Assembly (NCBI GenBank): GCA_947631445.1
Contig: CANRLN010000005.1
Span: 1 to 64,000, forward strand
Direction of reading: 5' to 3'
DNA: 64,000 nucleotides
Origin: an uncultured Clostridia bacterium
Lineage (GTDB): Bacteria > Bacillota > Clostridia > Oscillospirales > Ruminococcaceae
The notes under the pieces were generated by a model, which ran no database searches, was not told the DNA's origin, and worked only from the letters and a program-made list of their open reading frames with translations. Position numbers and translations under genes: made by a program. Below, piece by piece: positions 26,177 to 60,576 of this stretch. Numbering within the stretch: position 1 is the stretch's first letter; every line of letters begins with the position of its first letter.

Positions 26177-27106
26177 TTAGTCAAAAACACCTGTGGAGAG
26201 ATATCTTTCTCCGGTGTCGGGGAGAAGTGCAACAATAGTTTTTCCCTTGTTTTCGGGAAGTTTTGCAAGCTGGGTTGCAGCCCAAACAGCCGCACCACTG
26301 GAAATACCAATCAAAATGCCTTCCGATTTAGCAACAGCATTTGTTGTTTCATAAGCTGCGTCGTTGGAAACGGTAATAATTTTGTCATACACCTGTGTGT
26401 CAAGCGTTTCGGGAACAAATCCTGCACCAATTCCCTGAATTTTATGTCCGCCTGCCTTGCCCTGAGAAAGTACAGGAGAGCTTTCGGGTTCAACAGCAAC
26501 AATCTGAATATTTGGATTTTGCGATTTAAGATAACGTCCAACACCTGTAACAGTACCACCCGTGCCAACACCTGCAACAAAAATATCAATCTTACCGTCC
26601 GTGTCGTTCCAGATTTCAACACCTGTTGTTGCCTCATGAACAGCAGGGTTAGCAGGATTTACAAACTGACCAAGAATAACACTGTTTTCAATTTCCTTGT
26701 TAAGTTCGTTTGCTCTTGCAATAGCACCTTTCATTCCGCTCGAACCGGGAGTGAGAGAAATTTCAGCACCATAAGCCTTAAGAAGATTTCTACGTTCGAT
26801 TGACATGGTTTCAGGCATGGTAAGAATTGCTTTATAACCCTTAGCAGCAGCAACGCTTGCAAGTCCAATACCTGTATTACCGCTTGTAGGCTCGATAATA
26901 GTAGCTCCCGGCTTTAAAATGCCCTTTTTCTCTGCGTCCTCAATCATTGCATAAGCAACCCTGTCCTTAACGCTTCCGGCAGGGTTAAAAAGTTCGAGTT
27001 TTCCGAGAATTTTAGCATCAACATTAGCCGACTTTGTATAATTGGCAAGTTCCAGCAAAGGAGTCTTTCCGATAAGGTCGGTAACTGATTTTGCTATGTT
27101 AGACAT
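26177..27106 (-). CDS. cysK: Cysteine synthase (O-acetylserine sulfhydrylase)
   Basis: 309 aa. PLP enzyme joining O-acetylserine and sulfide to give cysteine. PLP lysine Lys47 in NPAGSVKDR, the substrate loop PTSGNTGIG, the phosphate-binding [15 protein letters not shown] and the C-terminal GISSGAA are intact. The ATG at 27106 has AAAGGTG ahead; the frame opens four codons earlier at TTG without a site. It follows metY on the same strand with a palindromic element between, so it may be transcribed by read-through. Confidence 0.96.
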
Positions 27107-27170
27107 AATAAACAACACCTTTCATAAATAAAATATTACTATAAAAAATTTATCTATACTAAAAATATTT

Positions 27171-27200
27171 TTGTATTCCCGCCAATGGCAGGGAATACAA
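27171..27200. repeat. Palindromic hairpin element, copy 6 (reverse orientation)
   Basis: TTGTATTCCC-GCC-AAT-GGC-A-GGGAATACAA, almost perfect. On the minus strand its flanks (TAATTAATTTT before, AAAAATATTTTTAG after) match the consensus of the family. It lies between metY and cysK. Confidence 0.75.
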
Positions 27201-27221: not shown

Positions 27222-28520
27222 TTACTTTTCTAAAGCCTTAAACGCTTCGTCCAAATCAAAGATAATATCATCAATATTTTCAATGCCAATTGACAAACGA
27301 ATTGTATTTGGTTTAATGCCTTGGTCGGCAAGCTCCTGTTCGTTAAGCTGAGAATGGGTTGTGGTTGCGGGGTGAATAACCAATGATTTAGCATCAGCAA
27401 CATTTGCAAGGAGCGAGAAAATCTCAAGACTGTCAATAAATTTCTTAGCGTCATCTGTTGTTCCCTTGATTTCAAATGTAAATATAGAACCTGCTCCATT
27501 TGGGAAATATTTATTATAAAGGTCTTTATATTTAGGGTCAAGCGAAGGGTGGTTTACCTTTTCAACAAGTGGGTGATTGTTAAGATATTCAACAACCTTA
27601 AGTGCATTTTGAACATGACGTTCAACCCTCACTGCAAGAGTTTCAAGACCCTGCAGGAAAATAAACGCATGGAAAGGAGAAAGGGTTGCACCCTGGTCAC
27701 GCAGGAGCAATGCTCTAATATAAGTAACAAAAGCTGCACTGCCCACTGCATCATAAAAGCTTACACCATGATAGCTTGGATTTGGCTCAACAAGCTGTGG
27801 GAATTTTCCGCTTGCTCTCCAGTCAAATTTACCGCCTTCAACAATAACACCACCAATTGCTGTTCCATGTCCGCCGATAAATTTTGTAGCAGATTCAAAA
27901 ACAATATCTGCACCGTGTTCAAGGGGTCTGAAAAGGTAAGGTGTAGCAAAAGTATTGTCCACAACAAGTGGGATTTTGTGTTTGTGTGCAATTTCTGCGA
28001 TTGCCTCAATATCGGCAATGTTTGCATTTGGGTTGCCAATAGTTTCAAGGAAAAGTGCCTTGGTATTTTCTTGAATTGCCTTTTCAAAATTTTGCGGGTC
28101 GTCTGGGTCAACAAAGGTTGTTGAAATGCCAATATCCTTATAAGTATGCTCAAGAAGATTGTATGTGCCACCATAAATTGTTTTAGCACTTACAATATGG
28201 TCGCCGTTCTTTGCAAGGGTTCTAAAAGTATAGTCGGCAGATGCCGCACCCGATGCAACCGCAAGAGCAGCTGTACCGTTTTCAAGAGCAGCAATTCTCT
28301 TTTCAAAAATTTCCTGTGTTGGGTTGGTAAGTCTGCCATAGATATTCCCTGCATCGCTAAGATTAAATCTTGCTGCTGCATGGTCGCTGTTGTGGAAAAC
28401 ATAAGAAGTTGTGGCATAGATTGGAACGGCTCTTGCATCGGTCACAGGGTCAGCCTGTTCCTGTCCGACATGAAGTCCAAGGGTTTCAAAACCCAATTTT
28501 CTTTCGCTAAATTTGTTCAT
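27222..28520 (-). CDS. metY: O-acetylhomoserine sulfhydrylase
   Basis: 432 aa, typical length for the MetY branch of the Cys/Met PLP family. Makes homocysteine from O-acetylhomoserine and sulfide. [11 protein letters not shown] at the N terminus, [26 protein letters not shown] and PLP lysine motif [12 protein letters not shown] are present. Ribosome binding site AGAGGAAA. Its leader encodes a 15-residue Cys-Cys peptide (28581-28628), which suggests control by cysteine supply. Confidence 0.95.
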
Positions 28521-28580: not shown

Positions 28581-28628
28581 TTATATGCAACATCGCATGG
28601 AAAAAATATTTTTCAAAACTGCTTTCAT
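28581..28628 (-). CDS. Leader peptide MKAVLKNIFSMRCCI upstream of metY
   Basis: 15 codons: ATG with the ribosome binding site GAGGA six bases upstream, reading MKAVLKNIFSMRCCI, stop TAA. It lies between the metY promoter and the metY start, 60 bases before the gene. Two adjacent Cys codons one residue after Met-Arg are what a cysteine-sensing leader would need. A TTTTTTCC stretch just before them could pair with the GGAAA of the metY ribosome binding site, so a stalled ribosome might free that site. The peptide and site are seen; the mechanism is inference. Confidence 0.6.
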   Translation of the reverse strand: MKAVLKNIFSMRCCI

Positions 28629-28675
28629 AAAATTTCCTCATTTCCGATAAGGTTACTATGTTTTAGCTTTATTAT

Positions 28676-28704
28676 ATTATACACCATAATCCTTACTTTG
28701 TCAA
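28676..28704 (-). promoter_or_regulatory. Promoter of metY leader
   Basis: Minus strand TTGACA (28699-28704), 17-base spacer, TATAAT (28676-28681), giving a leader of about 150 bases before metY. Confidence 0.85.
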
Positions 28705-28803: not shown

Positions 28804-28832
28804 TTGACAAATCAAAAAATTCATGCTATAAT
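28804..28832 (+). promoter_or_regulatory. Promoter of tRNA-Leu(CAA)
   Basis: TTGACA (28804-28809), 17-base spacer, TATAAT (28827-28832), 13 bases before the tRNA. Confidence 0.85.
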
Positions 28833-28845
28833 ATATAGGTAATAT

Positions 28846-28932
28846 GCCGGTGTGATGGAATTGGCAGACGTGCCAGACTCAAAATCTGGTGGTGGTGACA
28901 CCGTGTCGGTTCGACCCCGACCACCGGCACCA
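28846..28932 (+). tRNA. tRNA-Leu (anticodon CAA)
   Basis: Acceptor stem GCCGGTG / CACCGGC, discriminator A and encoded CCA (28930-28932). The anticodon stem CCAGA/TCTGG around CTCAAAA gives CAA. A long variable arm is present (GGTGGTGACACC), and the T arm GTCGG/CCGAC surrounds TTCGACC. Confidence 0.95.
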
Positions 28933-28943
28933 ATAAACAATTA

Positions 28944-28978
28944 ATGCTGTATTTTTTGAAATACAGCATTTTTTTTAT
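28944..28978 (+). terminator. Terminator of tRNA-Leu(CAA)
   Basis: ATGCTGTATT / AATACAGCAT hairpin followed by eight T residues. Confidence 0.88.
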
Positions 28979-60415: not shown

Positions 60416-60444
60416 AAAGCATGATTATCTTATAGTTGTCGTAC

Positions 60445-60545
60445 GAAGCGGGATGCAAAATACGAACCGCAAGCCATTAAAAACTTTTCGTTCGACCGAC
60501 AACTCCCCGTTCGGTCAACACTTAACGAACGTATTTTTACTCTTC
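60445..60545 (-). ncRNA. THF (tetrahydrofolate) riboswitch
   Basis: The roughly 100-base leader element matches the known class: P1 GAAG / CTTC, AGAGTA, P2 AAAATACG / CGTATTTT, the conserved CGTTAAGTG, P3 TTGACCG / CGGTCGA, the GGGGAGTTGTC loop, ACGAA, and the conserved TGCATCC before the 3' P1 strand. THF riboswitches usually repress folate transport or synthesis genes when folate is bound. Here it precedes folT. An 8-base segment just downstream (CGACAACT) is complementary to AGTTGTCG in the core and could form the alternative fold. Confidence 0.88.
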
Positions 60546-60576
60546 TGCCGGCATTAAAGATTTTACCGACAAGTTT

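Follow-up and report, generated by a model that had tools for sequence, protein, structure and literature searches.

In Gram-positive bacteria the control of sulfur amino-acid genes is usually credited to SAM riboswitches, T-boxes and repressors. Among leader peptides, trpL and hisL act through transcription termination and runs of control codons, with no single fixed sensitising codon ahead of these, and the stalling of TnaC responds to tryptophan. Closer to the present case, candidate cysteine leader peptides have been proposed for cys operons of Mycobacterium and other actinobacteria, according to the portions of the sources consulted (PMC1262725; PMC4633059). The locus described here lies in the window, that is, in the whole stretch of 64,000 nucleotides analysed, from an uncultured Clostridia bacterium, and its upstream open reading frame (uORF) looks like a divergent member of a putative family of Clostridia leader peptides in which a CGA codon stands before a Met or a Cys codon.

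A sequence-only reading had placed a frame of 15 codons, with its own Shine-Dalgarno (SD) site, between a consensus promoter and metY, and both its coordinates and its translation were confirmed (Table 1). The stop codon of this uORF lies 60 nt from the metY start (28520), and its CGA 75 nt from the same point; the stretch TTTTTTCC (28606-28599) is complementary to the GGAAA of the metY SD. The gene cysK, whose likely start is the ATG at 27106, follows metY at a distance of 118 nt, with a terminator-like inverted repeat in between. When metY leaders are shuffled, the combination of an SD-led uORF and an in-frame CGA-TGY turns up in about 0.7% of them. Elsewhere in the window, a perfect TTGACA-17-TATAAT promoter with an extended -10 diverges from this locus and stands ahead of a tRNA-Leu (CAA) and of a terminator-like hairpin at 28943-28970 (28804-28970, + strand), and the sole riboswitch of the window is a THF riboswitch at 60444-60546 (- strand, 82.6 bits).

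Table 1. Features of the metY-cysK locus in the window and the basis on which each was assigned.
Feature	Position	Strand	Basis
Sigma-70-type promoter TTGACA-17-TATAAT	28676..28704	-	12/12 consensus positions; predicted from the consensus match alone
SD site of the uORF, GAGGAAA	28633..28639	-	Sequence; a few nt 5′ of the ATG
15-codon uORF, MKAVLKNIFSMRCCI and stop	28581..28628	-	Translation
Core CGA-UGU-UGC (Arg-Cys-Cys), Cys-type CGA-X-UGN motif	28587..28595	-	Family statistics
Candidate anti-SD stretch UUUUUUCC within the uORF	28599..28606	-	Complementary to GGAAA in the metY SD
SD site of metY, GAGGAAA	28527..28533	-	Sequence
metY (O-acetylhomoserine sulfhydrylase family), presumed target	27222..28520	-	ORF; Pfam PF01053 Cys_Met_Meta_PP, E=1.3e-133
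Inverted repeat TGTATTCCC...GGGAATACA then AAAATATTTTT, in the metY-cysK gap	27172..27199	-	Terminator-like, imperfect; read by eye
cysK (cysteine synthase family), possible co-target of the leader	26177..27118	-	ORF; Pfam PALP, E=3.2e-76

The genus of the window is represented by this genome alone, and the metY upstream regions of relatives (137 in total) were therefore drawn from the same family and order. In a strict count, 85 of these 137 leaders contain a uORF that is preceded by an SD site and has CGA-AUG (Arg-Met) in frame, a structure found in about 0.4% of the same leaders when shuffled in ten rounds (about 1.1% if either CGA-AUG or CGA-TGY is accepted), and around 38% of the metY leaders are without the motif. 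The string CGAATGTG is present in 71 of the 137 leaders (-300..0), with a single occurrence as reverse complement, and it is absent from reversed sequences, from gene starts and from more distant upstream regions; CGAATG, wherever it occurs, is in frame within a short SD-led uORF in 98 of 109 cases. Examples of these uORFs, each closed by a stop codon, are MFASINKTKPITDAVFRMCC, MRKRTVKVLSLRMCC and MENYFEKLVRANFRFGRMCRCI, as well as MKNIFEELVRHNFRFGRM, which is entirely devoid of Cys. The distance from motif to gene is constrained (median 77 nt, quartiles 68-98), the value in the window falling at the mode of the family. Conserved upstream frames were found before both metY and cysK in the relatives, where the earlier reading had suggested looking for them, and its proposal of a candidate leader peptide controlling metY is supported. 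In the genome of the window itself, the canonical CGA-AUG uORF gave 13 matches elsewhere, not above the control (12). Close metY relatives that carry neither this uORF nor an Rfam element at metY also exist (L031, L035, L036, L037 and L053), and in one locus (L147) a short frame comes after the canonical leader uORF; it fuses the first part of metY to the last part of cysK, as if by internal deletion, and is followed by a gene for an Rrf2-type regulator.

The constraint on these leaders is found principally at the level of the codon. The tandem Cys codons singled out at first are not the conserved element, the core being instead the CGA codon for Arg with a codon for a sulfur amino acid directly after it. 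In an order-level search that left the Arg-type codon free at each of the three Arg positions, the third of them, the one before AUG, was CGA in 68 of 68 unbiased pattern matches, with all six codons in use at the other two positions; among the 30 leaders of the unbiased metY set that contain NxRxG-Arg-Met, this Arg was again CGA without exception (30/30), the second being written with six codons and the Gly with four. NxRxG is conserved in these 30 leaders with varied codons, and is absent from many others, and the last Arg is fixed as a codon. Arg before Cys is encoded by CGA in 40 of 67 cases inside uORFs, against 41 of 447 before other codons (p = 1e-19), the share of CGA before Cys in ordinary genes being 11%. 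When the stop follows Arg-Met directly it is always UGA (43/43; 20/20 in the order-level search), often in the context UGAC, which is a weak termination context. A scan for CGA-X-UGA in which X was left free, meant to gauge generality, was swamped by ordinary gene starts. In a Salmonella his-leader assay, ribosomes read CGA poorly in comparison with the rest of the CGU/C/A box, and NNU codons more slowly than NNC (PMC4046918), which matches the choice of CGA and UGU in the leaders.

A Cys version of the same arrangement precedes the cysK of some relatives in which this gene stands alone, rather than second after metY. Here the uORFs (MRQYFGRKRC, MKIYLKKRC, MNIIVRRIMRC, MCKRC and MNPFPYSRRCCAAA, all ending at a stop) carry an in-frame CGA-UGU, mostly 57-87 nt upstream of cysK, and the Cys codon after CGA is UGU in 18 of 18, never UGC. 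Met-type uORFs outnumber Cys-only ones by 85:2 ahead of metY, and ahead of cysK the ratio is 1:12 (Fisher p = 1e-12), in a count in which 57 of 70 cysK regions have neither type, many of them being second genes of operons. The frame of the window reads AUG-CGA-UGU-UGC, so that its Arg is likewise CGA and adjoins Cys, and nine of its bases, CGATGTTGC, are identical in the cysK uORFs of two relatives (L285 and L227); we therefore assign it to the family's Cys branch. The window leader, which has no canonical CGA-AUG, is thus, on present comparison, a divergent metY example within an operon-like metY-cysK pair.

The distribution of the pattern extends to other genes and taxa. A genome scan returned at least 120 stretches, and among the 80 loci listed nearly all are of Clostridia, the taxa including Oscillospiraceae, Ruminococcaceae, Lachnospiraceae, Christensenella and Erysipelatoclostridium. 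Behind the pattern lies metY in 111 of 162 distinct places, some of which end at contig ends or may be due to chance, and most of the classifiable targets other than metY are NlpA/MetQ lipoproteins, a MetN-type ABC ATPase with a NIL domain, other solute-binding proteins and a URO-D-type protein. The genome of the window has no clear MetQ above the cut-off. In one locus (L209) the protein under the family leader, of 550 aa, combines an SBP_bac_3 domain with an NlpA/MetQ lipoprotein domain; in another (L224), on a contig labelled Treponema sp. (MAG), the leader precedes a URO-D-type protein, which would be a case either of transfer or of misbinned Clostridia.

The frame and the metY SD had been suggested to pair in the window; such pairing stands as a property of the family and is weak in the window itself. 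The duplex between the end of the uORF and the SD region has an energy of z = -8.5, beaten by none of 5000 permutations, against z = -1.3 for a control segment further upstream; and in partition-function folds the metY SD and the uORF pair at 0.405 in native leaders, as compared with 0.221 in chimeras, that is, in leaders joined to genes of different species. The profile of the pairing partner in the family peaks 9-14 nt 5′ of the CGA, and where the anti-SD codon for Phe has become one for Tyr, GGTR tends to replace GGAA in the SD (covariation p = 0.003), although the kinship of the sequences inflates these tests of pairing and covariation somewhat. With a ribosome over the motif the predicted accessibility of the SD is at its highest, 0.52 versus 0.35 without a ribosome, a modest effect, other ribosome positions giving up to 0.49. 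For the metY SD of the window the predicted pairing falls from 0.54 without a ribosome to 0.19 with a ribosome on the motif; its leader folds no more stably than shuffled sequences (z = 0.01), and the hairpin is weak. In the cysK leaders (n=18) the test of SD pairing was not significant (428/5000).

Several candidate forms of control were rejected. No Rfam covariance model for a riboswitch or T-box matched the metY leader of the window, bearing out what had been read from its letters about T-boxes and SAM riboswitches, and none of either kind was found at metY in 40 related loci. Transcription attenuation was discarded because terminator-like elements between motif and gene are rare (6 of 193 leaders) and no intrinsic terminator was found between the uORF and metY in the window. 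A fusion of uORF and metY through frameshifting was rejected on the unbiased frame of the gene relative to the uORF (75/62/56), and the idea that the motif is kept through downstream pairing was rejected on the near-equal energies of native leaders and reversed-motif controls (-5.57 and -5.28 kcal/mol), so that such pairing does not account for its conservation.

With these observations, the uORF of the window is probably a ribosome-mediated translational attenuator. Unless a ribosome is slowed there, pairing of the SD region of metY with the end of the uORF would keep the translation of this gene low. A ribosome engaged on the uORF would meet CGA, a slow codon read by I-A wobble, and directly after it the codon of a sulfur amino acid, which is UGU (Cys) in the window and AUG (Met) in most relatives; were the charged Met or Cys tRNA scarce, the ribosome would linger at CGA-X, cover the anti-SD segment just upstream and so free the ribosome binding site (RBS) of metY. 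Reading of the sensed codon would be hampered by the CGA, by the wobble needed for UGU and by the pyrimidine that follows AUG, and the leader would consequently be more sensitive; the divergent copy in the window may be supposed to act in the same way. Against this reading it has to be said that the model explains neither the invariable UGA after Arg-Met nor the conservation of NFRFG at the level of the amino acids, and that in the window there is no CGA-AUG and the fold does not exceed that of shuffled sequences. The Cys-free uORFs of the family, the metY leaders without the motif, the modest gain in SD accessibility and the non-significant pairing test of the cysK leaders weigh against it as well.

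Alternatively, a small molecule would cause the nascent chain itself, as (x)RxNFRFGRM, to halt the ribosome at the UGN codon from inside the exit tunnel, the charging of tRNA then not being the signal. Such an arrest, which we consider unlikely, would agree with the Arg and Gly of NxRxG-Arg-Met being kept across synonymous codons, with the exclusive UGA of the Arg-Met-stop class, and with a start codon located exactly 48 nt 5′ of the CGA in about 70% of leaders; but NFRFG is missing from the window and from most leaders of its own family, and a peptide signal explains neither the strict CGA codon nor the change from Met to Cys before cysK. That codon is equally left without a role if stalling occurs at tandem Cys codons during cysteine shortage, as in conventional attenuation, with CGA incidental, a proposal to which we give very little credence. 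It does draw on the two Cys codons of the window and on the proportion of Cys among residues, which is 20.7% after Arg-Met and 2.0% before it; however, CGA is near-invariant and far above background, and 40 of 193 family uORFs contain no Cys codon at all, so that Cys cannot be the signal for all of them. The window belongs to the rarer Cys type.

A different use of Cys would arise from a programmed +1 frameshift in which a ribosome holding CGA in its P site would choose between AUG in the 0 frame and UGY in the +1 frame, the latter opening the region of the metY RBS. The base after CGA-AUG is a pyrimidine in 93 of 93 cases (30/30 in those other than TG, p = 2e-9), and the +1 codon is therefore always Cys; the +1 frame, unlike the -1 frame, remains open for longer than in shuffles (37.1 versus 30.1 nt, p = 6e-6), and in yeast a P-site CGA causes +1 shifts through A-site competition (PMC6301793). 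Nevertheless, the openness of the +1 and -1 frames differs at p = 0.04 only, metY shows no preferred frame with respect to the uORF, and the Cys type of the window and of cysK does not fit, its +1 codon being GUN. This shift appears highly improbable; it is just as doubtful that the CGA-A-UGY site weighs charged Met-tRNA against Cys-tRNA and that the metY leader thereby measures their ratio. Finally, the frame of the window could be due to chance, or to the decay of a uORF, and now be without regulatory effect, the functional family being retained in the relatives. The lack of CGA-AUG, the fold of its leader and the want of a congener genome are compatible with this, yet the promoter, the SD, the length of the frame, CGA-UGU-UGC and the 75-nt spacing all fit the family, and the chance expectation given above is low; a chance or decayed frame is quite unlikely.

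The family apparently is an undescribed one. It has no match in Pfam or NCBIfam, no description of CGA-AUG/CGA-UGU leaders was found in Rfam, Pfam, NCBIfam or the literature searched, whose scope left out most subscription journals and preprints, and the peptide strings FRFGRM, NFRFGR and RNGRMC do not occur in that literature. A large group of gut Clostridia appears to use one leader-peptide design in place of SAM riboswitches, T-boxes or repressors, with the sensed codon exchanged within this design between methionine and cysteine genes, and the strict CGA beside it would be a natural effect of synonymous codons or codon pairs that tunes the sensitivity of the sensor.

Among known systems, the proposed arrangement would be similar to translational attenuation of the ErmC/ErmB type, with an SD-led uORF, a target RBS sequestered by pairing and its release by the ribosome on the uORF; arrest there depends on an antibiotic, in contrast to the CGA beside Met or Cys codons before sulfur genes found here. 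With the trpL and hisL attenuators it shares control codons cognate to the pathway. A pause at UGA after a conserved peptide, as in arrest peptides of the TnaC type, is conceivable, although in the window family the constraint is on codons, Met and Cys are interchanged, and no ligand is known. The Rhodobacterales motif uORFC-8-2 before cysS also has tandem Cys codons in a uORF, but it acts by transcription attenuation with an intrinsic terminator and its target is a tRNA synthetase (PMC8632094). The RCC of the window and the RC of the cysK uORFs resemble the actinobacterial Cys leaders in their cluster of Cys near the end, and those leaders, in the consulted parts of their sources, likewise have Cys codons near the uORF end before sulfur genes and no terminator found; they differ, in those same parts, in a Cys-rich tail, in belonging to another phylum, and in presenting no fixed CGA, Met version or evidence of SD pairing (PMC1262725; PMC4633059). 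Thus, the kind of mechanism is known, and what would be new is the fixed sensitising codon together with a sensed codon that changes from methionine genes to cysteine genes.
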